A DNA stretch of 64,000 nt from Allohoeflea poritis (GTDB taxonomy: Bacteria > Pseudomonadota > Alphaproteobacteria > Rhizobiales > Rhizobiaceae): contig NZ_JAPJZH010000002.1 of assembly GCF_027889715.1 (NCBI RefSeq), positions 310,001 to 374,000 of the forward strand, read 5' to 3'. The notes under the pieces are model-generated. The model made no database searches. It had not been told where the DNA came from and saw nothing but the letters and a program-made list of their open reading frames with translations. Below, one piece after another: positions 1,535-48,794 of this stretch. The translations under genes and the position numbers were made by a program. Numbering within the stretch: the first letter of the stretch is position 1; each line of letters begins with the position of its first letter.

Positions 1535-1541
1535 GCATTCG

Positions 1542-2681: not shown

Positions 2682-2702
2682 TTTGTTTCCTCCCTTGGTG
2701 TT

Positions 2703-4328: not shown

Positions 4329-4330
4329 GA

Positions 4331-5497: not shown

Positions 5498-5499
5498 GC

Positions 5500-6315: not shown

Positions 6316-6785
6316 CGCGGACGCACTCCCTTGATCTGCACATTGTCGAGAAGTTCGACGAGGACATCGGCATCCTCGTCACTGAGCATGTTGAGCATGC
6401 TCGCGATCCAGCCTTCGTGAACCCCGGCCATATGGGCGAATTCATCTCGGCCCTTGTCGGTGAGTTGCACGATCATGGCCCGCCGGTCGCCGCTGACCGG
6501 CACCCGCACGACCAGCCCGTCGGAGACCAGGCGTTCGACAATACCTGTCACATTGCCGTTCGAGACCATCAGCGCCGCCGAAAGCGCGCTCATCTTCATG
6601 CCCTCGCGCTCGCGATAGAGCGCCGCCAGCACGTCGAAACGCGGCAGTGTCGTCGCGAACTCGACCCGCAGACGCTCGCGTATCTCGGCCTCCATCTGCC
6701 GCGATATCTTCAGCAGCCGAAGCCAGATGCGCAGGCGCTGCTTGTCGCGTTCCTCATTGTCGGCGGTCTCGGCAATGTTGCTCAT
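6312..6785 (-). CDS. MarR-family transcriptional regulator within the aromatic-CoA operon
   Basis: This is a 157-residue winged-helix regulator of the MarR family. Start codon ATG 6783-6785 is chosen because it forms an ATGA overlap with the SDR stop (6782-6784). An upstream in-frame extension would lie inside the SDR gene. The [30 protein letters not shown] segment is the recognition helix-turn-helix, followed by the wing [15 protein letters not shown]. MarR proteins in such clusters often sense the aryl-CoA or free acid and derepress the operon. Being embedded mid-operon would give autoregulation. A candidate operator palindrome lies upstream of the operon at 9931-9944. Confidence 0.88.
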
Positions 6786-7543
6786 ACCTCGCCTCCCGAT
6801 ACGGATACGGCCTGTCCGGTAATCGCACCGGAATTCGGACCGCACAGCCAAAGGACCGTCTGCGCGACTTCATCCGGCTGGATGAAACGCCCCATCGGGT
6901 TGGTCCGCAGAAGCGCCTTGGTCGCCTCGTCTCGATTCATACCCGTTTTGTCCATGACATTGTCCAGCGCCTCGGTCAGCATCGGCGTTTCCGTATAGCC
7001 GGGGCAGATCGCATTGACGGTGATTCCGCTGGTCGCAAGCTCCATCGCGACCGAACGGGTCAGGCCTATGGCGCCGTGCTTGGCGGCACAGTAATGGGCG
7101 ACATAGGGATAGCCGCGCAGCCCGGCCACGGAGGCAATGGTGACGATGCGGCCCCAGTCCTTGTTCTCCATGGCGGCGACACCCGCATGGATCGTCAGGT
7201 AAACGCCGGTCAGGTTGACGTCGATCGTCTTGCGCCAGCTTGCAACGTCAAGCTTTGCAAAGGGAGACGCCTGCGCCGCGCCGGCATTGGCAACAACGAT
7301 ATCGGCGCCGCCGTGATCGTCGCTGACGGTCGCAAACAAAGAGGCAACGCTATCCGGATCGGTGACATCGCAGGTCCTGGCCGTGATGCCATCCTGCGAT
7401 TTGGCCACCTCGTCCAGGGCCTCCCGCCGACGCCCGGATACGGTCACTGTCGCACCGGCCTTGGCGAGCTTGCGCGCGATCGCCGCGCCGACGCCCGAGC
7501 CGCCGCCGGTCACCACCGCATGTTTTCCGCTCAGTTTGCCCAA
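6782..7543 (-). CDS. SDR-family NAD(P)-dependent dehydrogenase (3-hydroxyacyl-CoA type)
   Basis: This 253-residue short-chain dehydrogenase/reductase has the cofactor motif TGGGSGVG (residues 12-19), the structural NAG (86-88), and catalytic Ser138, Tyr151 and Lys155 (YCAAK). The best start is a TTG at 7541-7543, 4 nt after the stop of the monooxygenase/reductase gene, with an AAAGG-like ribosome site upstream. No ATG gives a complete Rossmann motif. In the anthranilate-CoA pathway a hydroxyacyl-CoA dehydrogenase of this size is expected for the beta-oxidation-like steps. Substrate is inferred from the operon only. Confidence 0.88.
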   Translation of the reverse strand: MGKLSGKHAVVTGGGSGVGAAIARKLAKAGATVTVSGRRREALDEVAKSQDGITARTCDVTDPDSVASLFATVSDDHGGADIVVANAGAAQASPFAKLDVASWRKTIDVNLTGVYLTIHAGVAAMENKDWGRIVTIASVAGLRGYPYVAHYCAAKHGAIGLTRSVAMELATSGITVNAICPGYTETPMLTEALDNVMDKTGMNRDEATKALLRTNPMGRFIQPDEVAQTVLWLCGPNSGAITGQAVSVSGGEV

Positions 7544-7547
7544 TTGT

Positions 7548-9833
7548 TCACACCTTTATGGTTTGCGCCTCGGCACGCTCGGCAAGCCGCACGAGTTGAT
7601 CGCGGCCGGCGAGATATGGCAGCGGCCATTCGGTCTGCGTATCGCCGAGACCCGCCGCAGTGTGCAGTGTCCAGTAGGGATTGGCCAGATGCGGCCGGGC
7701 AAGACACACAAGATCGGCACGACCGGCCATCAGTATCGAATTGGCGTGATCGGGCTCGTAGATATTGCCGACGGCCATGGTCGCCATGTCGGCCTCGTTG
7801 CGGATGCGGTCCGAGAACGGCGTCTGGAACATGCGCCCGTAGACCGGCTCGGCCCGGATCGAGGTCTGCCCGGCGGAAACGTCGCAGATGTCGACGCCAG
7901 CATCCTTCAACATGGCGGCAATCGCCACCGCATCGTCCGGCGTCACGCCCTCATCGCCGACCCAGTCACAGGCGGAAATGCGCACCGAGATCGGCTTCCC
8001 GTCGGGCCATGCGGCGCGGACCGCACGGTAGACTTCGAGCGGAAACCGCATCCGGTTCTCGAGCGAACCACCGTAATCGTCGTCGCGCCTGTTGGTCAGC
8101 GGCGTGATGAAGGACGACAGCAGGTAACCGTGGGCGGCGTGAATCTCCAGCATGTCGAAACCGCAGCGATCCGCCATCTGCGCCGAGGCGACGAACTGCT
8201 CGATGACGCGCTCCATATCCGCCCGGTCCATGGGTTTCGGCGCCTGGTTGTTCGGCGACCAGGCAATGTCCGAGGGCGCCAGAAGCGGCCAGTTGCCATC
8301 CTTGAGCGGCGCATCCATCTCCTCCCAGCCGAGCTGTGTGGAGCCCTTGGCGCCGGAATGGCCGATCTGCATGCAGATCTTTGCCGGCGTTTGGCTGTGC
8401 ACGAAGTCGACGATGCGGCTCCAGGCCGCCTCATGCTCCGGTGCGTAGGTTCCGGGACATCCCGGCGTGATGCGCCCCTCCGGGCTGACACAGGTCATTT
8501 CCGTATAGACCAGTCCCGCGCCGCCCTTCGCCCGTTCGCCGTAGTGGACAAGATGCCAGTCGGTCGGACAACCATCGACGGCCTTGTACTGCGCCATCGG
8601 CGAGACCACGACACGGTTTGCCAGCGTCATGTCGCGCAACCGGTAGGGTGCGAACATCGGCGCACGATGGCCGTTGACGCCGGCACGCGCCTGGAACCAG
8701 CCCTCGGCGCGCTTCATCCAGTCCGGATCGCGCATGCGCAGGTTCTCATGGCTGATGCGCTGCGAACGCGTCAGCAGCGAATAGTTGAACTGCACCGGAT
8801 CGAGATGCAGGTAGCGTTCGACATTCTCGAACCACTCCGTGGAATTGCGCGCGGCCGATTGCAGCCGCAATACCTCGACCCGCCGCTCCTCCTCGTAGCG
8901 GTCGAAAGCCGCCTGCATCGAAGGTTCGCTGTGCAGGTAGTCGGCCAGCGCGATGGCGCTTTCCATGGCAAGCTTGGAGCCCGAGCCGATGGAGAAATGC
9001 GCCGTCGCCGCGGCATCGCCCAGCAGGACGACATTTTCGTGCGACCAGCGCTCGCAAAGCACCCGCGGGAAATTCAGCCATGCCGAACCGCGAATATGCC
9101 TGGCATTCGACATCAGCGAATGGCCGCCGAGATATTTGGCGAAGATCTTCTCGCAGACGGCGATGGACTCTTCCTGGCTCATGTCGCCAAAGCCGAATTT
9201 TTCCCACGTCTCCTCGCGGCACTCGACGATGAACGTCGCCGTATCGTCGTCGAACTGGTAGGCATGCGCCCAGATCCAGCCGTGTTCCGTCTCCTCGAAG
9301 ATGAATGTAAAGGCGTCGTCGAATTTCTGATGCGTGCCGAGCCACACGAACTTGCACTGGCGCACATCGATCTCCGGCCGGAAGGATTCCGAAAACTCGT
9401 TGCGCGTCTTCGAGTTCAGCCCGTCCGAAGCCACAACGAGATCGTAGTCGCGCGCATAGGCCGCGGCGCTTTCCATCTCCGTTTCGAAGCGCAATTCGAC
9501 GCCCAGCGAACGGGCCCGTTCCTGCAGGAGCAGCAGAAGCTGCTTGCGTCCGATACCGCAAAAACCATGCCCGGTGGAAACTTCGGTGGTTCCGCGATAG
9601 TGAACGGCAATGTCGTCCCAATAGGCGAAGTGCTTGCGAATGGCCTCGGCACTGACCGGATCGTTTTCCTGGAGATTGTCCAGCGTCTCGTCGGACAAGA
9701 CCACGCCCCAGCCGAAAGTATCGTCCGGTTTGTTGCGCTCGATCACCACGACCTCGTGGTTCGGATCGCGCAGCTTCATGGTGATGGCGAAATAGAGCCC
9801 GGCCGGCCCTCCTCCAAGGCATGCAATGCGCAT
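7548..9833 (-). CDS. Fused FAD monooxygenase/old-yellow-enzyme: 2-aminobenzoyl-CoA monooxygenase/reductase or salicylyl-CoA 5-hydroxylase
   Basis: This 761-residue two-domain flavoenzyme has an N-terminal aromatic-hydroxylase FAD domain (GGGPAG at 7-12; a [14 protein letters not shown] phosphate-binding motif before the middle). From about residue 395 comes an old-yellow-enzyme barrel ([30 protein letters not shown] near 563; [13 protein letters not shown]). This fusion is the hallmark of 2-aminobenzoyl-CoA monooxygenase/reductase, which hydroxylates and then reduces the ring of anthraniloyl-CoA. Bacterial salicylyl-CoA 5-hydroxylases share the fold. As first gene of the operon it sets the pathway: CoA activation, hydroxylation, ring reduction, then beta-oxidation-like steps. 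The choice between anthranilate and salicylate remains open. Confidence 0.9.
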
Positions 9834-10007: not shown

Positions 10008-11180
10008 TCAACTTTCGCCGGCCTGCGATCGCCGCCGCAGACGAAGCGGCGAGACGTCTGTTGCCCTGAAACCGCGCTGTTCAAGGCCTTCGGGTACCGG
10101 TCTTCCGGTCACCAGCCGGGCCGCGAGCTGCGAGAGGCCGGGGGCGGTCTGGATGCCGTAGCCGCCCTGACCGGCCAGCCAGAACAATCCTTCGACGGAC
10201 GGATCGTACCCGCAGACCGGCGCATGATCGCCGACGAATGTCCGCAAGCCCGCCCAACAGTTCTCCACGCGCTTTACATCAACGCTGAAGGCGCGCTGGA
10301 TTCGGTCGATACAGATCGCGATATCCATCTCTTCCGGCTGCGCGTCGCATGGCGCGGACGGTGTTTCGTCGGCCGGCGAGATCAGCAGCCGGCCTGCATC
10401 CGGTTTGAGATAGAACTGTTCGTCCACGTCAACGGTAATCGCCCATCTGGACGGATCGGCGCCCTCCGGCGCGGCGATGACAAGCGCCGTGCGGCGTTTT
10501 GGAACAAGGCCCGCCGGATCTGCACCCATGATGGCCGCCAGCTCATCGGCCCAGGCGCCCGCCGCATTGACGACAACCGGCGTGACGATCGTGTCGTGAC
10601 GCGTCGAAAGGACCCACGACCCGTTCTTGCGCTCGGCGGCCTTGACTTCCGATCCGACAACCACCTCGCCGCCACGCTGCCTCAGACCGCGCAGATAGCC
10701 ATGGTGAAGCGCATTCACATCGATATCGCTTGCCTGTTCCTCGTAGAGCCCGCCGGCGACGTAGCCCGGCCGCAACAGTGGAGACAGGGCGCGGATTTCG
10801 TCTTCATCGAGCATCCGCAGGCCCGTGCTGCCCGACAGCCTGCACCGAAGCGCCTCGAGACTGTCCATCTGGTCGTCTCGTGCCGCGTAAAGAACGCCGC
10901 GCGGCGTAAGCAGTGGATGTTCGCCGAAGACCTCCGGCGGGTTTTCGTAGAACACCCGCGACTGGCTGGTCAGCACCCGGATCGGCGCCGGCCCGTAAAA
11001 TTCGGAAAAGACGGCGGCGGAGCGCCCGGTTGTATGGTAGCCCGGGTGGCTTTCCATTTCGATGACGACGACACGCGCGTCGGCGGCCAGCTCATAGGCG
11101 ACCGATGCGCCCGCGATGCCCGCGCCGACAATGGCGATATCAAACTTTCGATGGGAATTCTGACTCAATACCGGCTCCAC
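10008..11180 (-). CDS. DauA-like FAD-dependent D-amino acid/amine dehydrogenase
   Basis: This 390-residue FAD oxidoreductase of the DAO fold has the dinucleotide motif GAGIAG at 19-24. The segment VVVIEMESHPGYHTTGRSAAVFSE strongly resembles D-arginine dehydrogenase DauA of Pseudomonas. The C-terminal GQGGYGIQTAPGLSQLAA closes the FAD site. Start is a GTG at 11178-11180, since no in-frame ATG precedes the Rossmann motif. It would deaminate a D-amino acid or secondary amine in the cytoplasm or at the membrane face and pass electrons to the respiratory chain. It lies 126 nt downstream of an FAD/GcvT fusion gene on the same strand, so co-transcription is possible. The exact substrate cannot be told. 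Confidence 0.8.
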   Translation of the reverse strand: MEPVLSQNSHRKFDIAIVGAGIAGASVAYELAADARVVVIEMESHPGYHTTGRSAAVFSEFYGPAPIRVLTSQSRVFYENPPEVFGEHPLLTPRGVLYAARDDQMDSLEALRCRLSGSTGLRMLDEDEIRALSPLLRPGYVAGGLYEEQASDIDVNALHHGYLRGLRQRGGEVVVGSEVKAAERKNGSWVLSTRHDTIVTPVVVNAAGAWADELAAIMGADPAGLVPKRRTALVIAAPEGADPSRWAITVDVDEQFYLKPDAGRLLISPADETPSAPCDAQPEEMDIAICIDRIQRAFSVDVKRVENCWAGLRTFVGDHAPVCGYDPSVEGLFWLAGQGGYGIQTAPGLSQLAARLVTGRPVPEGLEQRGFRATDVSPLRLRRRSQAGES

Positions 11181-11306: not shown

Positions 11307-13778
11307 TTATTGCCGGATCCGCTCGCTTTTCGGATCGTAAAGCGGTTTCAGGCTGGCGATCGCCTCAAACCGCTCACCGGCAACTTCGATCTCGAATTTC
11401 GACGCGAGCATGTCCTTGCCGCTCTCGCCGTCGCGCACCGGCACGTAGCCGAGCCCCACCGCGCCGCCGAGATGATGCCCGTAATTGCCGGATGTAAGGT
11501 AGCCCGCAATCTCGCCGTCGCGGACGATCGGCTCGGCATGGAAAAGCAACGGTTGCGGGTCGACAAGCTGGAACTGCACCAGCCGCTTGGTCAGCCCGTC
11601 GCGCTTGCGGTCGAGCACCGCCTCACGACCGATGAAAGGTCCGAAACGGCCGTCGGGCTTGTCCGTCTTCACCGCAAAACCGAGGCCGGCTTCCAGAACA
11701 TGATCCTCATCGGTGATGTCGTGGCCGAAATGACGATAGGCCTTTTCCATGCGGCAACTGTCCAGCACATGCATGCCCGCCAGGCGCAGCCCCTCGCCCT
11801 CGCCGGCGGCCATCATCGTGTCGAAGACGTGCCGTGCCATGTCAGCTGACACATAGAGCTCCCAGCCGAGTTCGCCGACATAGGTAATGCGGTGCGCGCG
11901 CACCGTCGCCATGCCGAGCTCGATGGTCTGAAACGTTCCGAACGGGAAGGCTTCGCTAGAAAGGTCGGCCGGCGTTGCCTGCTGCAGGATCTTGCGGGCA
12001 TTCGGGCCCATCACGCCAAGCACCGCCTCGCTGCTGGTGACATTGACGGCAATGCAGCGCGCCTCTTCGGGAATGTGACGCCTGAGCCAGGTGAAATCGC
12101 GATTGGCGACGGCCGCGCCGGTCACGACCATGAAGCGGTTCGCCGCAAGCCGCGATACCGTCAGATCGGCTTCGATGCCGCCGCGTGCGTTGAGCCACTG
12201 CGTGTAGACGATCCGCCCCGGCGCGACGTCGATATCATTGGCGCAGATACGCTGCAGCACGTCCATCGCGTCGGGGCCTTCGACGAGGAACTTGCCAAAG
12301 GCCGACAGGTCAAACGCCGCCGCGCTTTCGCGGACGGCCCTGTGTTCTCCGGCCGCATAGGCGAACCAGTTCTGCCGCTTCCAGCTATATTCATATTCGG
12401 GTTTGACGCCCTTTGCGCGATCCTCGGCCGGCACGAACCAGTGCGGTCGCTCCCAACCCGCCGTCTCGCCGAAGCAGGCGCCGCGCTCGGCCATCTTTTC
12501 GTGAAAGGGCGTGTGCCGGACATTGCGGGCCGTCTCGTATTGCCGGTACGGGAAGTGGTCGGCGTAGAGAAGGCCTAGGGTCTCCGTCACCCGGTTTTTC
12601 AGATAGGTGCGGTTGCCCTGGAAGGGCTCCATGCGGCGTATATCCACATCCCACAGATCGAAGGGCGGCTCGCCCTCGACAATCCACTCGGCAAGCGCCT
12701 TGCCAGCCCCGCCGGCCGACTGGATACCGACCGAGTTGAAGCCGGCAGCAACAAAGAAATTCTCGACCTCCGGCGATGGGCCGAGCAGATAGCGGTCGTC
12801 CGGCGTAAAGCTTTCCGGCCCATTGAAGAACGTATGGATCCCGGCGCTTTCAAGCAGCGGCAGGCGCTCGACGGCCTTTTCGAGAACCGGCTGGAAATGG
12901 TCGAAATCCTCCGGCAATTCATCGAAGCAGAAATCCTCCGGTATGCCGTCCATGCCCCAGGGTTTGGACACCGGCTCAAACGCGCCGAGGAGGATTTTCC
13001 CGGCATCCTCCTTGTAATAGGCGCACTCGTCCGGCACCCGCAGCACCGGCAGGTTGCCGGGAAGGCCGGTGACGGCTTCCGTCAGGATGTAGAAATGCTC
13101 GCATGCATGCAGCGGCACGTTGACGCCGGCCATCCGCCCGACTTCGTGGCCCCACATGCCGGCACAGTTGACGACGATATCGGCGGTGATTTCTCCCTTG
13201 TCGGTGCGCGCGCCCGTCGCCCGGCCGTCCTTGGTATGTATGGCTTCGACCTTCGTGTTCTCGAAGACCTTCACGCCCTTGTTGCGCGCACCCCGCACCA
13301 GCGCCATGGCGATGTTGGCAGGATCGCCCTGCCCGTCGAGCGGAATGTGCAACCCGCCGACGACGCCATCCGTGTTGAGATAGGGGTACATGTCGCCGCA
13401 ATCCTTCGCGGTGACGACATTCACCTCCACCCCATGGGTCTTGGCCATCGAGGCATTGCGCAGGAATTCCTCCATCCGCTCATCGCTCAGCGCCACGGCA
13501 AGCGATCCATTGCGCTTGAAACCCGTCGCAATGCCGGTTTCCGCCTCCAGCCCGCCGTAAAGCTCCTGGCTGTATTTAGCGAGCCGTGTCATGTTCATCG
13601 TCGCCCGCAGTTGCGCGATCAGTCCGGCCGCATGCCAGGTGGTGCCGCAGGTCAGTTGTCTGCGCTCGACGAGCACGACATCGCTCCAGCCGAGATGGGC
13701 GAGATGATAGGCGACGGAGCAGCCGACGACGCCGCCGCCGATGATGAGAACGCGGGTATGCCGGGGAAATTCGGCCAT
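11307..13778 (-). CDS. FAD-dependent demethylating dehydrogenase with GcvT domain (dimethylglycine/sarcosine dehydrogenase family), copy 1
   Basis: This 823-residue protein combines an N-terminal DAO-type FAD domain (IIGGGVVG from about residue 12) with a C-terminal GcvT-like tetrahydrofolate-binding half from about residue 430. His49 in CGTTWHAAG aligns with the histidine that carries covalent FAD in dimethylglycine and sarcosine dehydrogenases. Such enzymes oxidatively remove N-methyl groups and hand the formaldehyde unit to tetrahydrofolate. The ATG at 13776-13778 is chosen because it directly precedes the Rossmann fold; an upstream extension has no family similarity. A divergent MocR regulator lies 329 nt away. 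It differs clearly from the second copy at 19178, so the two probably have different N-methyl substrates. Confidence 0.85.
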   Translation of the reverse strand: MAEFPRHTRVLIIGGGVVGCSVAYHLAHLGWSDVVLVERRQLTCGTTWHAAGLIAQLRATMNMTRLAKYSQELYGGLEAETGIATGFKRNGSLAVALSDERMEEFLRNASMAKTHGVEVNVVTAKDCGDMYPYLNTDGVVGGLHIPLDGQGDPANIAMALVRGARNKGVKVFENTKVEAIHTKDGRATGARTDKGEITADIVVNCAGMWGHEVGRMAGVNVPLHACEHFYILTEAVTGLPGNLPVLRVPDECAYYKEDAGKILLGAFEPVSKPWGMDGIPEDFCFDELPEDFDHFQPVLEKAVERLPLLESAGIHTFFNGPESFTPDDRYLLGPSPEVENFFVAAGFNSVGIQSAGGAGKALAEWIVEGEPPFDLWDVDIRRMEPFQGNRTYLKNRVTETLGLLYADHFPYRQYETARNVRHTPFHEKMAERGACFGETAGWERPHWFVPAEDRAKGVKPEYEYSWKRQNWFAYAAGEHRAVRESAAAFDLSAFGKFLVEGPDAMDVLQRICANDIDVAPGRIVYTQWLNARGGIEADLTVSRLAANRFMVVTGAAVANRDFTWLRRHIPEEARCIAVNVTSSEAVLGVMGPNARKILQQATPADLSSEAFPFGTFQTIELGMATVRAHRITYVGELGWELYVSADMARHVFDTMMAAGEGEGLRLAGMHVLDSCRMEKAYRHFGHDITDEDHVLEAGLGFAVKTDKPDGRFGPFIGREAVLDRKRDGLTKRLVQFQLVDPQPLLFHAEPIVRDGEIAGYLTSGNYGHHLGGAVGLGYVPVRDGESGKDMLASKFEIEVAGERFEAIASLKPLYDPKSERIRQ

Positions 13779-14107
13779 GATGGACTCCCTGCGGTACAGG
13801 CGGAAAGCGCCGCTGGTGAAATTTTTCCTGATATTTTCACGAAACGTGTGAAAGGTCCAGCCCGTTCTGCGAGATACGCCTGCGACCGGCAAGGGCGCGA
13901 CATGGCAGGCCGCTTCTGGCCCATTGTGGCACCACCGCACACCCCGATGGCAAGACCATTCTGGCAGCAAATATCCCACCACCAAACGGCCAGTTGAACA
14001 GAATCCGGAGCCAGGACTTGATTTACGTGATCAGTTTGGCCTCATAATAGGGCCAGTTAATCGGGACAGAAAGGCGATCCGAACGCCAAAGGGAGCGCGA
14101 CCGGACC
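13779..14107 (+). promoter_or_regulatory. Divergent promoter region between the FAD/GcvT gene and tauR
   Basis: This 329-nt non-coding stretch separates divergently oriented genes. I see no convincing small gene in it. It carries two copies of GGCCAGTTRA described separately, and a possible regulatory inverted element (TTTGGCC at 14035-14041 facing GGGCCA at 14050-14055). It must hold the promoters of both the demethylase gene (leftwards) and the MocR regulator gene (rightwards). No clear -35/-10 pair could be singled out. Confidence 0.5.
13988..14060 (+). repeat. GGCCAGTTRA direct repeats, candidate TauR/MocR operator
   Basis: GGCCAGTTGA (13988-13997) and GGCCAGTTAA (14051-14060) are direct repeats whose starts are exactly 63 bp apart, close to six helical turns. 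They lie 48-120 bp upstream of the regulator gene. The second copy continues leftwards as ATAGGGCCAGTT, which matches 10 of 12 positions of ATGGTGCCAGTT upstream of xsc. MocR-type regulators such as GabR and TauR bind direct repeats on one face of the helix, so this is the expected layout for autoregulation. The assignment is inferential. Confidence 0.45.
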
Positions 14108-15586
14108 ATGCGCAATTCACTTTTTCATGTCGAACGCATGGAGATGACCACCCTCCAGACGCAGATTCGCGAGATGCTGGTCTCGGCGATGCTTTCCGGC
14201 CAGTTGCCGGTCGGCGCGCCGATCCCTTCCACGCGGGCCATGGCCAAGCGTCTGAAAGTGTCGCGCAACACGGTCATGCTGGCCTATCAGGCGCTGGCAT
14301 CCGACGGTTATCTCGTCGCGCGCGAGCGCTCGGGCTTCTATGTCTCCCCCGATATCCATGACGGGACTGTCGCGGAGATGGCCGCGCTGCCGGAAGCAAC
14401 GGGAGACCGGCCGGAACCCGATTGGCACGGCCGTTTCCGGGTTCAGCCGAGCAGCCAGACGAATGTCGAAAAACCCGACAACTGGCACGACTATCCCTAT
14501 CCCTTCATCTACGGGCAGGCCGATGCGGCACTGTTCCCGATCGCCGCCTGGCGCGACTGCATGCGCCAGTCCATGGGCCGCAAATGGCTCGAGGCCTGGA
14601 CCAACGACCATTTTGCCGAAGACGACAGGATCCTGATCGAACAGATACGCCAGCGCATCCTGACACGCCGCGGCATTCTTGCCGGCCCCGACGAGGTCCT
14701 GATCACCCTCGGCGCGCAGAACGCGCTCTATCTGCTCTCCAGCCTGCTCGTGAAGCGCGACACGACGGTTGCGATCGAGGACCCCGGCTACCGCGATATT
14801 CGCAACATCTTCCAATTGCGGACAGACCACATTCGCAATGTTCCCGTGGATTCGGAAGGCATCACGCTAAGCGACGAACTAAAGGGCTCGGAACTGGTCT
14901 TTGTCACGCCCAGCCACCAGTATCCGACCAACGTCACGATGAGCCTGGAACGCCGCAAGGCGCTCCTTGAATGGGCAAACGAGAACAACGGCCTGATCAT
15001 CGAGGACGATTACGAGTTCGAGACGAATTACGAGGGCGAGCCGACGCCGGCGCTCAAATCGCTCGATCAGGGCCAGCGCGTCCTTTATGTCGGCAGCCTG
15101 TCGAAATCGCTGATGCCGGGCCTGCGCATGGGTTTCATGGTCGCGCCCGCGGCGCTGATCCGCGAGGCGCGCGCGTTGCGCCGGCTGATGCTGCGCCACC
15201 CGCCGGGCAACAATCAGGGCGTCGTCGCTTTGTTTTTGGCGCTCGGGCATCACGACACGCTGATCGGGCGCCTGCACCGCAGCTACCGCGATCGCTGGAT
15301 CACCATGGGCAAGGCGCTTGACGCACACTTCCCCGGCTGGGCCGAAACGCCCGGCTTCGGCGGAACGTCCTATTGGGTCAAGGGGCCGAAATGGCTCGAT
15401 TGCAATGAACTTGCCAGCCGGGCGCTCGAAGAGGGAATCGTCATCGAACCGGGCGATATCTATTTCTCGGATCCCGAAAACCACCGCAATTATTTCCGGC
15501 TCGGCTTCTCCTCCATCGCCGAGGAGCGTATCGAGCCGGGGATCGAGCGTCTGGCGGGCATCGTCCGCACCATGGCGCCCGGCTGA
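14108..15586 (+). CDS. tauR: MocR-family (GntR-aminotransferase) regulator, probable taurine regulator TauR
   Basis: This 492-residue protein has a GntR winged helix-turn-helix at the N-terminus (about residues 15-82; IPSTRAMAKRLKVSRNTVMLAY) fused to a fold-type-I aminotransferase-like domain. The PLP lysine is Lys333 in VGSLSKSLMPG. MocR proteins bind an external amine substrate through PLP and act as activators or repressors. The immediate neighbour is xsc, the central taurine-degradation gene, 120 nt downstream on the same strand, which supports the TauR identity known from Rhodobacter. Start ATG 14108 has GGGAG upstream. Whether the effector is taurine itself or an N-methylated taurine is not known. 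Confidence 0.75.
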   Translation: MRNSLFHVERMEMTTLQTQIREMLVSAMLSGQLPVGAPIPSTRAMAKRLKVSRNTVMLAYQALASDGYLVARERSGFYVSPDIHDGTVAEMAALPEATGDRPEPDWHGRFRVQPSSQTNVEKPDNWHDYPYPFIYGQADAALFPIAAWRDCMRQSMGRKWLEAWTNDHFAEDDRILIEQIRQRILTRRGILAGPDEVLITLGAQNALYLLSSLLVKRDTTVAIEDPGYRDIRNIFQLRTDHIRNVPVDSEGITLSDELKGSELVFVTPSHQYPTNVTMSLERRKALLEWANENNGLIIEDDYEFETNYEGEPTPALKSLDQGQRVLYVGSLSKSLMPGLRMGFMVAPAALIREARALRRLMLRHPPGNNQGVVALFLALGHHDTLIGRLHRSYRDRWITMGKALDAHFPGWAETPGFGGTSYWVKGPKWLDCNELASRALEEGIVIEPGDIYFSDPENHRNYFRLGFSSIAEERIEPGIERLAGIVRTMAPG

Positions 15587-15623
15587 GACTGGTTCAAACT
15601 ACCGGCTGATCTGGCTCTACGAC

Positions 15624-15635
15624 ATGGTGCCAGTT
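15624..15635 (+). promoter_or_regulatory. Third GCCAGTT element upstream of xsc
   Basis: ATGGTGCCAGTT lies 72-83 nt before the xsc start codon, in the 120-nt gap after tauR. It matches 10 of 12 positions of the ATAGGGCCAGTT element upstream of tauR. A shared element at both promoters is what one would expect if the MocR regulator controls itself and xsc. A 12-nt match with two mismatches is suggestive only. Confidence 0.35.
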
Positions 15636-15706
15636 TGCCCCTATCAAGCAGAAAACATCCGCCGTGCAAGGCGTGATCCATCCGCATCCTGAGAGGAATA
15701 GCCGTT

Positions 15707-17482
15707 ATGAAAATGACCACCGAGGAAGCCTTCGTAAAGGTTCTGCAGATGCACGGCATCGAGCATGCTTTCGGCATCATCGGATCGGCCATGATGCCGA
15801 TCTCGGACCTTTTCCCGAAGGCCGGCATAACGTTCTGGGACTGCGCCCACGAAACCAATGCCGGCATTATCTGCGACGGCTATACGCGTTCCACCGGCAA
15901 GATCGCCATGGCGGTCGCCCAGAACGGGCCGGGCATCACCAATTTCGTCACTCCGATCAAGACCGCCTACTGGAACCACACGCCCATGCTTCTGGTCACG
16001 CCGCAGGCGGCCAACAAGACCATCGGCCAGGGCGGTTTCCAGGAAGTGGAACAGATGGCGCTGTTCCGCGACATGGTCTGCTACCAGGAGGAAGTGCGCG
16101 ATCCCTCGCGCATGGCGGAAGTCCTCAACCGGGTTATTGAAAAGGCCATCCGCGGCTCCGCGCCCGCGCAGATCAACGTGCCGCGCGATTTCTGGACCCA
16201 GGTCGTCGATATCGAACTGCCGCAGATCGTCCGGCTGGAACGCCCGGCCGGCGGTGCGGATGCGATCGACCGCGCGGCCGAGCTTCTGTCGAATGCACGC
16301 TTCCCGGTCATCTTGTCCGGCGCCGGCGTCGTCATCGGCGGTGCCATCGACGATTGCCGCAAGCTCGCCGAGCGCCTCGATGCGCCGGTGGCCAGCGGTT
16401 ATCAGCACAATGACAGTTTCCCGGGAAGCCATCCGCTCGCCTGCGGCCCGCTCGGCTACAACGGCTCCAAGGCGGCGATGGAACTGATTGCCCAGGCCGA
16501 CGTCGTGCTGGCGCTTGGCACCCGGCTCAACCCGTTCTCCACCCTGCCCGGCTACGGCATCGACTACTGGCCGAAGGATGCCAGCATCATCCAGGTCGAC
16601 ATCAATGCCGACCGCATCGGCCTGACCAAGAAGGTCACCGTCGGCATTTGCGGCGATGCCAGGCTCGTCGCGCAGCAGATCCTCGAAAAGCTCTCGCCGT
16701 CGGCCGGCGACACGGACCGCGACGAGCGCAAGGCACTGATCCACCGCACCAAGTCGGCCTGGCTGCAGACCCTTTCGAGCATGGACCATGAGGATGACGA
16801 TCCGGGCACCACCTGGAACCAGGACGCCCGCACAGACCAGCCGAACCGCATGTCGCCGCGCAAGGCCTGGCGCGCCATCCAGGCGGGCCTGCCGAAGGAG
16901 GCGATCATATCCTCCGATATCGGCAACAACTGCGCGATCGGCAATGCCTACCCGACCTTCGAGCAGGGCCGCAAATATCTGGCGCCCGGCCTGTTCGGGC
17001 CGTGCGGCTACGGATTCCCCGCCATTCTCGGCGCCAAGATCGGTTGCCCGGATACGCCGGTCGTCGGCTTTGCCGGAGACGGCGCTTTCGGCATTTCGAT
17101 GAACGAGATGACCTCGTGCGGCCGCGACGAATGGCCGGCCATCACCATGGTGGTCTTCCGCAACTACCAGTGGGGCGCGGAAAAGCGCAACACGACGCTC
17201 TGGTTCGACAACAATTTCGTCGGCACAGAGCTCGATCCGCATCTGAGCTACGCGAAGGTCGCCGAGGGCTGCGGGCTGAAGGGCGTGACGGTTACCAATC
17301 AGGACGATTTGACAACAGCGCTGCACGAGGCCTGCAATGCCCAGAAAGACGGCGTCACCACCTTTATCGAGGTCATCCTCAACCAGGAACTCGGCGAGCC
17401 GTTCCGCCGCGACGCCATGAAAAAACCGGTCGAGGTGGCGGGCATCAATCCGGACGATATGCGTCCGCAACAAGGCGCGTAG
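15707..17482 (+). CDS. xsc: Sulfoacetaldehyde acetyltransferase
   Basis: This 591-residue thiamine-diphosphate enzyme converts sulfoacetaldehyde and phosphate to acetyl phosphate and sulfite (EC 2.3.3.15), the desulfonation step of taurine and other C2 sulfonates. The N-terminal FGIIGSAMMPISDLFPKAGI and CAHETNAGIICDGYTRSTG are close to Xsc family sequence. Glu49 is the expected activator of the thiamine ring, and the ThDP motif starts at GDGAFG, around residue 457. Length matches the family. GAGAGGAA is a good ribosome site. No phosphate acetyltransferase, taurine aminotransferase, taurine dehydrogenase or sulfite exporter gene is in the window, which is unusual for an xsc locus. Confidence 0.93.
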   Translation: MKMTTEEAFVKVLQMHGIEHAFGIIGSAMMPISDLFPKAGITFWDCAHETNAGIICDGYTRSTGKIAMAVAQNGPGITNFVTPIKTAYWNHTPMLLVTPQAANKTIGQGGFQEVEQMALFRDMVCYQEEVRDPSRMAEVLNRVIEKAIRGSAPAQINVPRDFWTQVVDIELPQIVRLERPAGGADAIDRAAELLSNARFPVILSGAGVVIGGAIDDCRKLAERLDAPVASGYQHNDSFPGSHPLACGPLGYNGSKAAMELIAQADVVLALGTRLNPFSTLPGYGIDYWPKDASIIQVDINADRIGLTKKVTVGICGDARLVAQQILEKLSPSAGDTDRDERKALIHRTKSAWLQTLSSMDHEDDDPGTTWNQDARTDQPNRMSPRKAWRAIQAGLPKEAIISSDIGNNCAIGNAYPTFEQGRKYLAPGLFGPCGYGFPAILGAKIGCPDTPVVGFAGDGAFGISMNEMTSCGRDEWPAITMVVFRNYQWGAEKRNTTLWFDNNFVGTELDPHLSYAKVAEGCGLKGVTVTNQDDLTTALHEACNAQKDGVTTFIEVILNQELGEPFRRDAMKKPVEVAGINPDDMRPQQGA

Positions 17483-17493
17483 GGCAAAGCAAG

Positions 17494-17512
17494 GGGCCGG
17501 CGCGACCGGCCC
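17494..17512 (+). terminator. GC-rich hairpin after xsc
   Basis: GGGCCGG pairs with CCGGCCC over a 5-nt loop, 12 nt after the xsc stop codon and inside the convergent gap with the MttB-family gene. It is followed by TTCGACC rather than a T-run, so Rho-independent termination is only moderately supported. Confidence 0.5.
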
Positions 17513-17517
17513 TTCGA

Positions 17518-17546
17518 CCAGCGTCGGCTTTACCTGCCGACGCTGG
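17518..17546. terminator. Second, 10-bp hairpin in the xsc/mttB convergent gap
   Basis: CCAGCGTCGG pairs perfectly with CCGACGCTGG across a 9-nt loop, only 13 nt from the MttB-family stop codon. Being symmetric and central to a convergent pair, it could serve as a terminator for transcription from both sides. Confidence 0.55.
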
Positions 17547-17559
17547 AGAGTTCATGGAA

Positions 17560-19134
17560 TTACTCCGCTTCCAACTCGATATTGAACCGCTCGCGAATGC
17601 GCCTGTCGAGATCTGCGGAGATATGTTTCGGAAAGACCGTTGAAAGAATCCGGTTCTTCTCCGCGATCGCCGTCTCCACGATATCCGGCCTGCCTTTTTC
17701 AACCCACTCCTTGGGGCTCGTCCGGTCGCCGATCACCGGATAGATATATTCGGTCTGCATCAGCGCCAGTGTCTGCTCGTGGCCGAGATAATGTCCCGGC
17801 CCGTTGATGGACACATCCTCGATCGAGGCGAGCGAAAGCGATTCGTCATTGACCTCGATACCGCGAACGCAGCGCATGCACTGACCCAGCATGTCGTTGT
17901 CGATGATCAGGCTTTCCAGCGAGAAGCCGAGCAGAGAGGCATGCATGCCGGCCGATTCATAGACCATGTTGAGACCGGAAAGTCCGGCCATCACATTGGT
18001 GATGCCTTTCTCGTATCCGGCCTGAACGTCCGGCACTTTGGAATCGGCGATGCCGGCCGCCGCGCCGCCCGGAAGGTCATAGAAATGGGCCATCTGCGCG
18101 CAGGCCGCCGAAAGCAGCGCCTGCTCGCCCGATCCGCCCGACATGGCGCCGGTGCGCAGATCGGACACGAAGGGCCAGGTGCCGAATATCGCCGGATGTC
18201 CCTTTGAGATGGCATTCACATAGACCAGGCCGGCAAGCACCTCGGCAACCGCCTGCACCACCGCCCCGGCAATCGCCGCCGGCGCGGTCGCACCCGCCTG
18301 CCCCGCCGAAAGCAGCAGAACCGGCATGCCCGCGCGCACGCATTGCTCGAGCACATGACAGGCATCCTCGGCAAACCGCAGCGGCGGCACAACGAAACAG
18401 TTCGAGTTGGAAACGAAGGGGCGCGCCCTGAAAGCCGCTTCGCCACCGGCGATCATATGCAGCATTTCCAGCGATGGCTTCACGCTCTCGCCGACCGAAA
18501 AACTCGTTCCGATATGCTTGGTTGTTCCCAGAAGGCAGGCATAGAGCGTGTTGATGTCGAGTTGGACAGGATCGGGAATATCGCGTGCGACCACGGGCCG
18601 TTGGAAGAAATGCACATTGTCCAGTGTTTCGACGATACGGGCCGCGTCATAAAGATCGCGTAACTCGGATTCGCGGTATTCGCGCCTTTCCACGTCGACG
18701 ATATGCACCGCCGCGCCGGCTGTCCCGAAATGCACCTTCTTGCCGGACAAAATCATATCGTGCGCGGGATCCTGGCCGCAAATCGTCAAGTTGCGGGCCG
18801 CGTTTCGCACCGTGTCCATGACCAGTTCGCGCGGAAACCGCAATCGTCCGTCCTCGCCATAGGTCGCGCCGGCGGCTGTGCACACATCTATGCAGCTCTC
18901 GATCGGCTGTCCCATCCCGACATCCTCAAGGACGGTGAGCGCCGCCTCGTGAATGCGTTCCAGATCGTTTTCCGAAAGCGGGCGATAACTGCCCGACGAC
19001 ATGCCCGGCCGGACCGGGCGCACCGATTTGTCCAGCGGCGCGGCGCGCATGGCCCGCCTTGCTTCGCGTCCTCCCGAACGGCGTCTTTCCCGTTCCACGC
19101 CCGGCACCTCCACCTCGTCAACAAGCTTCGACAT
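17560..19134 (-). CDS. Trimethylamine methyltransferase (MttB) family protein, non-pyrrolysine type
   Basis: This is a 524-residue member of the MttB superfamily (PSEEDLxRIHEAAL-like N-terminal repeat region; GTAGAAVHIVDVERREY; a glycine-rich barrel with GAMSGGSGEQALLSAA). The frame is open throughout, with no in-frame amber codon, so it is a non-pyrrolysine homologue. Characterised members demethylate quaternary amines such as glycine betaine, proline betaine or carnitine and transfer the methyl to a corrinoid protein. ATG 19132-19134 is chosen as start; an upstream extension would cover the preceding gene's end. It follows an FAD/GcvT demethylase gene by 43 nt and is convergent with xsc. 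No corrinoid protein or reactivase is encoded in the window, so the methyl acceptor is unknown. Confidence 0.85.
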   Translation of the reverse strand: MSKLVDEVEVPGVERERRRSGGREARRAMRAAPLDKSVRPVRPGMSSGSYRPLSENDLERIHEAALTVLEDVGMGQPIESCIDVCTAAGATYGEDGRLRFPRELVMDTVRNAARNLTICGQDPAHDMILSGKKVHFGTAGAAVHIVDVERREYRESELRDLYDAARIVETLDNVHFFQRPVVARDIPDPVQLDINTLYACLLGTTKHIGTSFSVGESVKPSLEMLHMIAGGEAAFRARPFVSNSNCFVVPPLRFAEDACHVLEQCVRAGMPVLLLSAGQAGATAPAAIAGAVVQAVAEVLAGLVYVNAISKGHPAIFGTWPFVSDLRTGAMSGGSGEQALLSAACAQMAHFYDLPGGAAAGIADSKVPDVQAGYEKGITNVMAGLSGLNMVYESAGMHASLLGFSLESLIIDNDMLGQCMRCVRGIEVNDESLSLASIEDVSINGPGHYLGHEQTLALMQTEYIYPVIGDRTSPKEWVEKGRPDIVETAIAEKNRILSTVFPKHISADLDRRIRERFNIELEAE

Positions 19135-19177
19135 CGGCGTCAATCCTCCAATATGCGGCCGCTCAACTCCTCCGGCA

Positions 19178-21613
19178 CTATGCCCGCAAACGCTCGTTTT
19201 CCGGATCGTAGATGACTTCCGGAACGACCGTTGCGGGTCGTTTTTCGCCATAGATATCGACCAGGAGCCGCGTTCCTTCCGCTGTCTGCGCGGCATCCAC
19301 ATAGCCGAGCGCGATGGACTTTCCGGTACGGTGTCCGAAACCGCCCGACGTGATCAGTCCGACGCGCTGGTCGCCCGAGAAAACCGGGCTTCCGTAAGGC
19401 GCTTCGGTGCCGTCTCCCGGCTCGAGCTCCATGGCGACGAACCGCTCGGCGACGCCCTCCTGGCTTTGCTTCAACAGCGCCTCGCGACCGATAAACTGCG
19501 TCTTGTTCAGCTTGACGAAACGGTCGACGGCGGATGTCAGTGGCGTATATTCGGAAGACAGATCCTGTTTCCAGCCTCGATAGCCCTTTTCAAGGCGCAT
19601 CGAATCCATCGCATACATGCCGAAATGGCCGATACCGTGCGCTTCGCCGGCTTCCAGCAATTGCTTGTGCACCGCCGCCATGGTCTCCATCGGCATGTGC
19701 AGCTCATAGCCGAGTTCGCCGACGAAATTGACCCGCAATACGAGCCCGTGCGCCATGCCGATCGTGATCGGCGCGGCACACAGCCAAGGCAAGGCCGCGT
19801 TCGAGGGGTCTTCATCGGCAATCGCTGAGAGGATTTCACGCGATTTCGGCCCTGCCAGCACCAGCGTGCCGTAGCGGGCGGTGATATCCTCCAGCGACAC
19901 CGAACCATCATCCGGCATGTGCTGCTTGAGCCAGTCGCGGTCGTGCCAGTAGCCCGCCGCCGGCCCGATCAGCCAGAACCGATCATCGGCGAGCCGCGTG
20001 ATCGTCAGCTCGGTCATCACCCGGCCGCTTTCGGCGCAGAAATAGGCCAGCGACACACGCCCCTGCCGCGGAAGCGATCCCGTGATCATGCCGTCGAGCC
20101 AGTCGGCTGCGCCCGGTCCTGAAAGCTCGAACCGTGTGAAGCCGGTCAGGTCGAGAATGCCGGCACGCTCGGTGACGGTCTTGACCTCGGCGGCGATCGC
20201 ATCGTCGAAATGCGGCCGTCCATGGGTCAGGTCCGGCTCCGGCCGGTCGCCCTCGCGGGCAAACCAGAGCGGCCGCTCCCAGCCGCCGAAACTGCCGAAC
20301 TGCGCACCGTGTTCCGCCATGGCATCGTAGAGCGGCGAGGCCTTTGCCGGACGTCCTGCCGGCCACGGCCGGTGCGGCAGATGCATCGCATATTCGTTCT
20401 GATAGACCTCGATGGCCTTGACCGTCGCGTATGTTTTCGTCGCGTAGTCGGTGAAACGCCGCGGATCGACCATCCAAAGATCGAGTTCCGTTTCGCCTTC
20501 GGTAATGAACTCGGCGATCACCTTGCCGGCCCCGCCTGCCTGGCATATGCCGAATGTGAAAACGCAGGCTTCGAAGAAGTTGGTCAGCCCGGGCGCCGGA
20601 CCGATCAGCGGCAAGCCGTCCGGCGCGTAAGGGATCGGCCCGTTGATGACCTTCTGCACGCCGCCGGTCGCCAGCATCGGCACCCGCTCGCAGGCGGCGT
20701 TGATATACCATTCGAGCCGCTCCAGATCGTCCGGATAGAGCTGGAAGGCGAAATCCTCGGGTGTGCCTTCTTTCAGCCAGTGCGGCGTCGCCTGCCACTC
20801 ATAGGGCCCGAGGATGAGCCCGTTGCCCTCCTGGCGCAGATAGTAGCTGTCGTCCGGATCGCGCAGCAGCGGCACTTTCTTGTCCAGCGCCTCCAATTCG
20901 CCGATCGCCTCGGTCACCAGGTACTGGTGCGACATGGTCACCATCGGAATGTCCCGCCCGACCATGCGGCCGATTTCATCGGCGTAGTAGCCAGCCGCAT
21001 TGATGACGATCTCGGCATGGACGCTGCCCTTGTCCGTCGTCACGTCCCAGGTGCCGTCGGCCCGCTGGGACAGCCCCGTCACCTTGGTAAAGCGCGCCAC
21101 CTTGGCACCCTTGTCGCGCGCGCCCTTGGCAAAAGCCTGGGTAAGCTGCGCCGGATCGATGTCGCCGTCTTCGGAGTCCCAGGCGCCACCCATGAGGTCG
21201 TGCGTCTCCAGCCAGGGATAGTATTTGCCCTTCAGTTCCTGTGCGGAGAGCACGTCCATGTCCATGCCGGCGGCATTGGCCATGGAAGCGACATGCTCGA
21301 ACTCCTGCATGCGCTCTTTCGAGTGCGCCAGGCGCACGGCACCCGTCATGTGGCGGTTGATGGGATAGCCGACCTCGTCGCCGAGCCTGTTGTAGAGCCG
21401 CGAGCCGTAGTTCTGCAGCTTCATCAGGTTGAGATTGCCGGAGAAATTCGGCGTATTGCCGGCCGCGTGCCAGGTCGAACCGGATGTCAGCTCGTTCTTC
21501 TCGATCAGCAACACATCGGTCTCGCCGGCCATCGCCAGATGATAAAGACAGCTTGCGCCGACGGCGCCGCCACCGATGATGACAACACGGGCGTGGGAAG
21601 CGAGCTCGGCCAT
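19178..21613 (-). CDS. FAD-dependent demethylating dehydrogenase with GcvT domain, copy 2
   Basis: This 811-residue protein of the dimethylglycine/sarcosine dehydrogenase family has an FAD domain with IIGGGAVGA near residue 12 and the likely covalent-FAD histidine His49 in SGSTWHAAGN. From about residue 430 comes a GcvT-type folate-binding region (FVGELGYELHMPME; DSMRLEKGYRGWKQDL). It should oxidise a secondary or tertiary N-methylamine and pass the one-carbon unit to tetrahydrofolate. It lies in an operon with an XRE-cupin regulator (17 nt upstream) and an MttB-family methyltransferase (43 nt downstream). This suggests stepwise removal of methyl groups: first from a quaternary amine, then from the resulting tertiary or secondary amine. 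Confidence 0.85.
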   Translation of the reverse strand: MAELASHARVVIIGGGAVGASCLYHLAMAGETDVLLIEKNELTSGSTWHAAGNTPNFSGNLNLMKLQNYGSRLYNRLGDEVGYPINRHMTGAVRLAHSKERMQEFEHVASMANAAGMDMDVLSAQELKGKYYPWLETHDLMGGAWDSEDGDIDPAQLTQAFAKGARDKGAKVARFTKVTGLSQRADGTWDVTTDKGSVHAEIVINAAGYYADEIGRMVGRDIPMVTMSHQYLVTEAIGELEALDKKVPLLRDPDDSYYLRQEGNGLILGPYEWQATPHWLKEGTPEDFAFQLYPDDLERLEWYINAACERVPMLATGGVQKVINGPIPYAPDGLPLIGPAPGLTNFFEACVFTFGICQAGGAGKVIAEFITEGETELDLWMVDPRRFTDYATKTYATVKAIEVYQNEYAMHLPHRPWPAGRPAKASPLYDAMAEHGAQFGSFGGWERPLWFAREGDRPEPDLTHGRPHFDDAIAAEVKTVTERAGILDLTGFTRFELSGPGAADWLDGMITGSLPRQGRVSLAYFCAESGRVMTELTITRLADDRFWLIGPAAGYWHDRDWLKQHMPDDGSVSLEDITARYGTLVLAGPKSREILSAIADEDPSNAALPWLCAAPITIGMAHGLVLRVNFVGELGYELHMPMETMAAVHKQLLEAGEAHGIGHFGMYAMDSMRLEKGYRGWKQDLSSEYTPLTSAVDRFVKLNKTQFIGREALLKQSQEGVAERFVAMELEPGDGTEAPYGSPVFSGDQRVGLITSGGFGHRTGKSIALGYVDAAQTAEGTRLLVDIYGEKRPATVVPEVIYDPENERLRA

Positions 21614-21630: not shown

Positions 21631-22227
21631 TCAGTAGATGGGTGGGGAGACGACCCAGATCGCGACAGCCGGTTCGTCCGAGTTGTTCTCCCAGTCGAAC
21701 TCTTCTTCCTTGAAGCGGAAACTGTCACCGGCATGGACCGTGAATTTCTTGTCGCCAATGCGGATATCGAGCATGCCGGACACCATATAGGCGGTCTCCT
21801 CCGTCATGCGCAGCGCTGGCCTGGAGCGCTTCGAACGGGGCGCGAAAATGCTGCGGATCACTTCGAAGGAACCGGACAGGTCCGGTGAAAGCAGTTCTTC
21901 GGCCAGCCCGCCTTCAGTATCGCCGCTCGTGCGCCTCAAGCCGGCCCGCGTGATATAACCGCGTTCCGCCTCCGACACGTCCGACAACACCAGAAACCAG
22001 CCCAGCGGCACACCGAACAGGTCGGCGACCTGCCGCAGTTCTTCGGTCGAAAGCTCCGATATGCCGCGCTCGACCTGGCTGAGATAGCCGATCGAGCGGC
22101 CGAGCTTGACCGCCATTTCGGTCAGCGTCATGCCCTTTGATTGCCGGATCGCCCTGATGTCCCGGCCGATATCAGCCGACACGTTACCCGGGTCGTATTT
22201 TTCCGCCTGCGCGCCGTCGCTTGCCAT
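21631..22227 (-). CDS. XRE-family regulator with C-terminal cupin domain
   Basis: This 198-residue protein has an N-terminal HTH of the Cro/CI (XRE) type (about residues 20-75; MTLTEMAVKLGRSIGYLSQVERG) and a C-terminal double-stranded beta-helix cupin (MTEETAYMVSGMLDIRIG ... HAGDSFRF). This architecture regulates amine, polyamine and amino acid catabolic genes such as PuuR-like systems, with the cupin binding the small effector. ATG at 22225-22227 is preferred over a TTG four codons upstream. As the first gene of the demethylase/MttB operon it probably autoregulates. A 6-bp inverted repeat lies about 75-97 bp upstream of the start. Confidence 0.85.
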   Translation of the reverse strand: MASDGAQAEKYDPGNVSADIGRDIRAIRQSKGMTLTEMAVKLGRSIGYLSQVERGISELSTEELRQVADLFGVPLGWFLVLSDVSEAERGYITRAGLRRTSGDTEGGLAEELLSPDLSGSFEVIRSIFAPRSKRSRPALRMTEETAYMVSGMLDIRIGDKKFTVHAGDSFRFKEEEFDWENNSDEPAVAIWVVSPPIY

Positions 22228-22301
22228 TGTGCCGTCCAAACCGTTTGCGTCACGCGCCAGCCCGCTGGCGAGACATGCCGGCGAGCTTCCATCAACGCTG
22301 A

Positions 22302-48780: not shown

Positions 48781-48794
48781 GTCAGTCTCCCAAC

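Follow-up and report, generated by a model that had tools for sequence, protein, structure and literature searches.

A 64,000-nucleotide stretch of the Allohoeflea poritis genome (contig NZ_JAPJZH010000002.1, positions 310,001 to 374,000; hereafter the window) carries an island built around tauR and xsc. From left to right it encodes a DauA-like flavoenzyme, the flavin adenine dinucleotide (FAD)-dependent GcvT-domain enzyme GcvT1, TauR, Xsc, MttB, a second FAD/GcvT enzyme (GcvT2) and a regulator with helix-turn-helix (HTH) and cupin domains (Table 1). An earlier note on this DNA had described tauR-xsc as flanked on both sides by FAD/GcvT and MttB genes, and domain and family scans recover every gene that it named. 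Its gene calls are correct, with two starts moved inward. The GcvT1 open reading frame runs from 11307 to 13985 on the minus strand and the start matching relatives is the ATG at 13778 (MAEFPRHTRVLIIGGG...); the mttB frame extends to 19302, overlapping GcvT2, and its likely start is the ATG at 19134. The note was also right that neither Tpa nor TauXY adjoins tauR-xsc. The host genome of 5.58 Mb contains eight MttB homologues and a single xsc match (E ≤ 1e-150). What do methyl-removing enzymes do beside genes of taurine breakdown?

Table 1. Features of the tauR-xsc island, in window coordinates
Feature	Position	Strand	Basis
DauA-like FAD amino-acid/amine dehydrogenase (putative function)	10008..11180	-	PF01266; DauA 3nyc 331 bits; 126 bp after GcvT1
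GcvT1, dimethylglycine dehydrogenase (DMGDH)-like FAD/GcvT demethylase	11307..13778	-	Pfam domains; DMGDH 4pab 495 bits; gene context
CTGGAC box upstream of GcvT1, resembling TauR half-site CTGGACYTAA	13853..13860	-	suggestive
TauR-like box CTGGCCCTATTATGAGGCCAA upstream of tauR	14036..14056	-	suggestive
tauR, MocR-type regulator	14108..15586	+	GntR and aminotransferase domains; tree with TauRs
Inverted repeat CTGGCTCTACGACATGGTGCCAG between tauR and xsc	15611..15633	+	comparison by eye across four clade genomes
xsc, sulfoacetaldehyde acetyltransferase	15707..17482	+	TIGR03457, NF005713
mttB, non-pyrrolysine MttB-superfamily methyltransferase	17560..19134	-	PF06253; 9yce/2qne 206 bits
GcvT2, second DMGDH-like FAD/GcvT demethylase	19178..21613	-	domains; 43 bp upstream of mttB
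HTH-cupin regulator heading the gcvT2-mttB operon	21631..22239, start uncertain	-	PF01381 + PF07883

Xsc scores 972.5 bits against TIGR03457 (equivalog cut-off 676.4) and 1042.5 against NF005713 (cut-off 620). For the tauR product the only model to pass its cut-off is PdxR (NF052282; 363.6 versus 320 bits), among 25 of 60 NCBIfam families that include no TauR model. We read the regulator as TauR and not PdxR because both the tree and the gene context place it with the TauRs of taurine clusters. In a 30-row tree, whose TauRs are named by gene context and include no experimentally characterised member, it falls in an 11-row clade (support 100/100) with regulators encoded beside tauABC and mostly also tpa, xsc and GcvT1. 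It is 72% identical to the regulator of one taurine locus, L154 (L numbers denote loci and G numbers genomes).

The accessible part of a regulon study gives the TauR consensus as CTGGACYTAA (PMC5320631). CTGGAC lies at almost the same offset upstream of GcvT1 in the window and in three relatives that carry the same gene set (L009, L010 and L011). Judged by eye, the box before tauR reads CTGGCC in L009 and L011 and CTGGCT in L010, and the inverted repeat between tauR and xsc is kept in all four genomes as CTGGCWCTAMGRCATGGTGCCAG, with three variable bases. The tauR-tpa regions of L149, L154 and L155 contain CTGGACCTA. In none of the four clade genomes does the region upstream of the HTH-cupin gene show a TauR box. 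The boxes of this clade comprise CTGGAC and CTGGCC/CTGGCW variants without the full set of CTGGACYTAA repeats, and they are suggestive of TauR binding.

GcvT1 and GcvT2 share the domain build of DMGDH, with DAO, FAO_M, GCV_T and GCV_T_C over about 820 amino acids (in GcvT1, PF01266, PF16350, PF01571 and PF08669). Neither passes the trimethylamine N-oxide demethylase model NF053776 (160.9 and 152.7 bits; cut-off 1100). After DMGDH, GcvT1 matches the solved dimethylglycine oxidase (DMGO) 1pj5 with 431 bits. In the database records examined, genes of the GcvT1 type are annotated merely as 'FAD-dependent oxidoreductase'. The gene context points to methylated taurine, not to methylated glycine, as the substrate, and we regard GcvT1 as a candidate N-methyltaurine (or dimethyltaurine) demethylase. 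MttB belongs to the MttB superfamily (387.9 bits against PF06253, gathering score 25). It falls short of the pyrrolysine-type trimethylamine methyltransferase model TIGR02369 (384.9 bits, cut-off 525), and its frame contains no internal stops, hence no in-frame amber codon. It is a divergent paralogue, 24-27% identical to the copies at L001-L006 of its own genome and 42% to that at L008; we propose it as a candidate taurine betaine:corrinoid methyltransferase. An FAD/GcvT relative, 38-44% identical to GcvT2, adjoins the copies at L003, L006 and L008, which shows that pairings of this kind also occur apart from taurine genes.

The earlier note had staked its idea in part on conservation beside xsc in relatives. 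On this point the idea survives: the set is kept in three relatives, found among the best 80 of at least 577 loci in a search of genome contigs with MttB. In Nitratireductor sp. XY-223 (L009), identities are 96% for Xsc, 94% for TauR, 92% for GcvT1, 91% for MttB, 95% for GcvT2 and 89% for the HTH-cupin protein; in L010 and L011 they are 82-93% for Xsc, TauR, GcvT1, MttB and GcvT2 and 74-75% for the HTH-cupin protein, a gene that also recurs in many GcvT2-GcvT1-MttB cassettes. The association exceeds chance, with GcvT1, tauR, xsc, mttB and GcvT2 together at 82-96% identity in three other genomes. A DauA-like homologue follows GcvT1 in L010 (54%) and L011 (61%), in both at lower identity than its neighbours, so that it may not be a strict orthologue there; in L009 the homologue is another 1.3 kb away from GcvT1 (81% across the 144 amino acids available). 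All three relatives carry a TauABC-type ATP-binding cassette (ABC) transporter on the opposite strand between gcvT2 and mttB. The window lacks this stretch of about 3.2 kb and the two genes are 43 bp apart (19134-19178). The transporter proteins match taurine ABC models best yet stay below their cut-offs: 182 and 174 bits for TauA of L009 and L010 (TIGR01729, cut-off 304), 288 for TauB of L010 (357) and 246 for TauC of L009 (342). TauA of L009 shares 71% identity with its counterpart in a tpa-xsc cluster of G145.

Does GcvT1 keep company with taurine genes beyond this clade? In an order-wide sample of 397 genomes, GcvT1 relatives (E ≤ 1e-250) occur at 114 places in 105 genomes, and xsc exceeds its cut-off in 93 genomes. 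Orthologues were taken at 59% identity or more, a line drawn after inspection of the order-wide table and then held fixed for the class sample. In genomes with xsc, 13 of 41 places above this line (our own included) lie within 20 kb of xsc, compared with 0 of 32 below it. We inspected the neighbourhoods of all 66 places above the line, mostly 8-10 kb per side; three unlinked ones are contigs shorter than 3.5 kb. Xsc, tauR, tauABC or tpa genes stand near GcvT1 at 25 of these places in 15 families, our own included (in G040 solely xsc, at 16.6 kb), which adds 14 families to that of A. poritis. No taurine genes lie near any of the 20 control loci below 59%; all 20 come from genomes with xsc, and a single family supplies 15.

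Canonical taurine clusters, such as those of L150 and L154, are among the linked places. L150 reads xsc / GcvT1-tpa / tauR-tauABC, and L149 and L197 read tauABC-tauR, tpa-GcvT1. L151 and L180 join tauABC-tauR to GcvT2-GcvT1, and L161 has the order GcvT2-tauCBA-TauR-Ald-GcvT1. In L154, GcvT2-tauCBA-tauR / tpa-cupin-GcvT1 is followed by a TRAP-like transporter, a GMC oxidoreductase and xsc. GcvT2 homologues stand near tauABC in L151, L154, L161, L179, L180, L201 and L203. As a separate observation, L153-L156 carry a TRAP-like transporter, an IclR-like regulator and a GMC oxidoreductase near xsc, which, by analogy, we take as a possible isethionate module feeding the same Xsc.

On a GcvT1 tree of 120 rows, 31 of which have taurine context, this label changes 12 times, with 10 or more changes forced by the starred branches, against a mean of 27.6 for shuffled labels; taurine context is therefore clustered yet not the product of one inherited event. 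The 31 rows all belong to a group of 99 rows, and none is in the 21-row group across the midpoint root. This repeated and specific link between GcvT1 and taurine genes within the order is the firmest part of our argument, and its simplest meaning is demethylation of an N-methylated taurine.

The corresponding evidence for MttB is sparser. At 57% identity or more, the order holds 52 MttB places, 42 of them in genomes with xsc, and three of the 42 (our own, G039 and G148) lie within 20 kb of xsc. The MttB gene of G039 faces tauBA-tpa-tauR-ald-xsc, and GcvT1-tauC lies further to the left; in G148 the series MttB-GcvT1-homocysteine methyltransferase-like-GcvT2 stands opposite xsc. In L052, xsc and tauR are at least about 7 kb from MttB. 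A TauR-like MocR regulator lies within about 2 kb of MttB in five genomes of family f1 (four g3, one g7) and in L012, and in G283 it is accompanied by Ald and GcvT1; none is found near MttB in G323 (L195), the sixth f1 locus examined. The MttB-adjacent MocRs group (100/100, in the 30-row tree) with those of the tauABC clusters L161 and L162. The earlier note's proposal of a possible taurine-betaine/N-methyltaurine island is partly supported, by the conserved set and the GcvT1-taurine linkage, and less well by MttB, whose linkage to xsc or a TauR-like regulator is sparse outside the clade.

The genome may also supply a methyl acceptor for MttB. Its single B12-binding_2 match lies at locus L283, about 104 kb from the island, in a hub that encodes an OpuAC-type binding protein, a homocysteine S-methyltransferase, an MttB (769 bits against PF06253), the B12 protein, DUF1638, a pterin-binding enzyme and a RACo-type reactivase. 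The accessible text on Ruegeria pomeroyi MtgC/MtgD describes one corrinoid protein that serves both methionine synthesis and glycine betaine demethylation (PMC12478193). As far as that text goes, the MtgBCD system shares with the island an MttB-superfamily methyltransferase without an adjoining corrinoid protein, the B12 protein, DUF1638, pterin-binding enzyme and RACo-type reactivase being encoded elsewhere in the genome; it differs in that the island MttB is a divergent paralogue tied to taurine genes. By this analogy the island MttB may use the corrinoid protein of L283 as a second MttB.

From these observations we infer a scheme for substrates, step order, deamination, uptake and regulation. 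We consider it fairly probable that the island allows growth on N-methylated taurines, the quaternary taurine betaine most likely included, through demethylation, deamination and Xsc. MttB would transfer one methyl group of taurine betaine (N,N,N-trimethyltaurine) to the corrinoid protein of the hub, encoded with its reactivase and pterin-binding enzyme. GcvT2 and GcvT1, as FAD- and tetrahydrofolate (THF)-dependent enzymes of the DMGDH type, would then take dimethyltaurine to N-methyltaurine and on to taurine, producing methylene-THF. The DauA-like flavoprotein or an AptA-type aminotransferase would convert the product to sulfoacetaldehyde, and Xsc would cleave this to acetyl phosphate and sulfite. 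The two arms of the island could be controlled separately, by TauR in response to taurine and by the HTH-cupin regulator in response to the methylated compound upstream. Three demethylating enzymes match the three methyl groups of a quaternary amine, which we count in favour of this pathway. The quaternary substrate and the DauA-like step are suggested by gene position.

A bolder version would make this a complete taurine betaine route, with the first taurine betaine:corrinoid methyltransferase, a pair of demethylases for di- and monomethyltaurine, a DauA-like dehydrogenase that oxidises taurine to sulfoacetaldehyde in place of Tpa/TauXY, and, in the GcvT1 family, a widespread and unrecognised methyltaurine demethylase of alphaproteobacterial taurine regulons; in this full form we hold it to be rather unlikely.

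By position, the DauA-like enzyme is a candidate for the step from taurine or N-methyltaurine to sulfoacetaldehyde. Its closest solved relative is the D-arginine dehydrogenase DauA, in which R222 and R305 bind the substrate, presumably as a carboxylate clamp. Both positions align to arginine in the DauA-like protein (numbering offset by hand), an alignment that does not separate carboxylate from sulfonate and would fit any small anionic amine. Other deaminases were sought in the genome. The best match to TauY, a query named from its place before xsc, is 33% identical (TauX was not searched for); on S. meliloti pSymA and a Shinella plasmid, an NTF2-family protein and an FAD-binding oxidoreductase precede xsc and were taken as TauXY by this placement. 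The best Tpa match (52%) is an AptA-type aminotransferase at 50073-51395 of the window, which scores 751 bits against the AptA model NF052567 (cut-off 500). The tpa-like gene of taurine cluster L127, where 'tpa' is a label from context, also passes this model (600.5 bits), which therefore does not tell the two apart, and the AptA-type enzyme of the A. poritis genome could perform the deamination. As for uptake, the genome has no close copy of TauA, the best match being 24% identical (E 8.6e-7; TauB, TauC, Pta and TauE were not searched for), and the same query finds the 71% copy in G145 as a positive control.

Several observations weigh against growth on methylated taurines as the role of the island, beyond the late choice of the identity line and the narrow source of the controls. 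Because both arginines are kept, an ordinary D-amino acid is equally possible as the substrate of the DauA-like enzyme. The genome lacks the TauA of its relatives, which leaves uptake unexplained. Glycine betaine methyltransferase (9yce) is among the closest solved kin of MttB, three of 42 MttB places are near xsc, and no MttB lies in the stretch at 21 of the 25 taurine-linked GcvT1 places. Of the 65 genomes with GcvT1 in the order, 25 have no xsc that exceeds the cut-off, the match in G072 being partial and below it; four of the 25 taurine-linked places are in such genomes (G007, G072, G119 and G367), where the link is tauABC, joined by tauR in G072. Xsc is also missing from six of eight f1/g3 genomes with MttB, which weighs against a route from taurine to Xsc there. 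Co-occurrence, confounded by ancestry, speaks for the proposed role, with xsc in 40 of 65 GcvT1 genomes versus 53 of 332 others. The earlier note had suggested checking co-occurrence of xsc and MttB. It is found (xsc in 38 of 48 MttB genomes versus 55 of 349 others, again confounded), with close linkage as rare as noted above. As a further point against it, all eight GcvT1-GcvT2 pairs of f1/g3 stand beside an aminotransferase instead of taurine genes, and six of the eight also have a homocysteine methyltransferase nearby.

The link is also much weaker in a class-wide sample of 381 genomes (our own included). GcvT1 and xsc lie within 20 kb in two of 28 genomes with both, G504 (1.1 kb apart) and G720 (58 bp, with tauR and tpa near), a binomial probability of 0.038 if 44 kb in 4 Mb is taken as a crude expectation. 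Taurine genes occur at two of the 40 loci examined for neighbours, out of 61 GcvT1 places; GcvT1 mostly stands alone or in GcvT2-GcvT1(-MttB) cassettes elsewhere. Xsc is present in 28 of 61 GcvT1 genomes versus 16 of 319 others, where ancestry confounds as well. Since many GcvT1 and MttB orthologues lie far from xsc or in genomes that lack it, the two families are probably not restricted to taurine.

Could the two kinds of demethylase serve different substrates? The FAD/GcvT enzymes may take N-methyl- and dimethyltaurine to taurine while MttB forms a separate module for another quaternary amine such as glycine betaine. The solved kin of MttB, its rarity beside xsc and its absence from most taurine-linked GcvT1 places (for example L149, L150, L153-L155 and L157) all fit this division. 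Against it, MttB belongs to the island in all four clade genomes, and further families also have it close to xsc or to a TauR-like regulator. The A. poritis genome moreover encodes seven MttB homologues besides that of the island, including the hub copy next to an OpuAC-type binding protein. We judge this explanation unlikely. A second alternative assigns the whole GcvT2-GcvT1-MttB cassette to glycine betaine, dimethylglycine, sarcosine or another carboxylate betaine and puts it near xsc merely as osmolyte genes cluster. The closest solved structures (DMGDH/DMGO and glycine betaine methyltransferase) and the many cassette copies far from xsc, or in genomes without it, speak for such a role. 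It does not explain why GcvT1 sits among taurine genes at 25 of 66 places and at none of the control loci, nor why the cassette of L009-L011 is joined to tauABC-type genes and to no betaine transporter, and we find it quite improbable. That unrelated tauR-xsc and methyl-group genes merely came to lie side by side in this lineage, as the missing tauABC of the window and the frequent unlinked cassettes might suggest, is very improbable given the same neighbours in four genomes and a linkage that recurs in other families, with the forced label changes on the GcvT1 tree.

Growth on methylated taurines would extend canonical taurine dissimilation (TauABC, Tpa or TauXY, Xsc and Pta, in a TauR regulon). 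The island shares with it Xsc, a TauR-type regulator and TauR-like boxes, and clusters of its relatives contain TauABC-type, Tpa-like and Ald-like genes; it differs in adding two demethylases and MttB, in a genome without close TauA or TauY or a dedicated Tpa. Methylated taurines occur in marine algae and animals. In Alcaligenes faecalis and Paracoccus versutus, Weinitschke et al. in 2006 reportedly described conversion of N-methyltaurine to sulfoacetaldehyde for Xsc with release of methylamine, whereas in our proposal the methyl group would pass to THF before deamination. The accessible part of one study treats taurine and N,N,N-trimethyltaurine as osmolytes (PMC5762795). That of Suvorova and Rodionov (2016; PMC5320631) names a COG665 oxidoreductase, perhaps of the GcvT1 enzyme type, among the members of TauR regulons in some Rhodobacterales, and it proposes neither a role in demethylation nor a methylated taurine. 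Among the matches listed from the open-access literature, which leaves out most subscription journals, no title or opening lines of an abstract assign a gene to methyltaurine demethylation. The component families are known; neither their combination nor the substrates proposed here turned up in that literature. If the proposal is right, a common alphaproteobacterial gene ties methylated taurines to one-carbon metabolism and sulfonate breakdown, and the occurrence of GcvT1 in taurine clusters would serve as a sign of methyltaurine use in genomes and metatranscriptomes.

Some loci lie outside this argument. In family f1 (L158, L159, L185-L187, L189-L191 and L196), GcvT2 and GcvT1 flank a pyridoxal phosphate-dependent aminotransferase, often with a homocysteine S-methyltransferase and mostly without xsc; these loci perhaps serve another methylated amine. 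On S. meliloti pSymA and an Aminobacter plasmid, an FAD/GcvT relative about 50% identical to GcvT1 lies near a 2-aminoethylphosphonate transaminase and phnA (L169, 17348-19825 and 22591-26543; L174, 9992-12469 and 20447-22436), and from this context it is a possible N-methyl-aminoethylphosphonate demethylase. PhnW-like genes also occur in two control loci, L232 and L233. On pSymB of S. meliloti Ak57 (L147, 9406-11837), a GcvT1 match falls in three pieces with no gene annotated, reflecting a broken gene or sequencing errors.

Elsewhere in the window, positions 44-51 kb were considered as a second taurine cluster on account of CTGGAC matches and the Tpa-like protein. The candidate was rejected: the boxes fall within open frames or at their ends, and the genes at 43624-51395 form a pyrimidine-degradation cluster with a dihydropyrimidinase, an allantoate/ureidopropionase-type amidase, the AptA-type aminotransferase and an ABC transporter. 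To the left of the island, positions 546-9833 encode a benzoate-CoA-ligase-like enzyme, an acyl-CoA dehydrogenase, an enoyl-CoA hydratase, a MarR regulator, a branched-chain-type ABC transporter and a salicylyl-CoA 5-hydroxylase (NF006101, 1309 bits).

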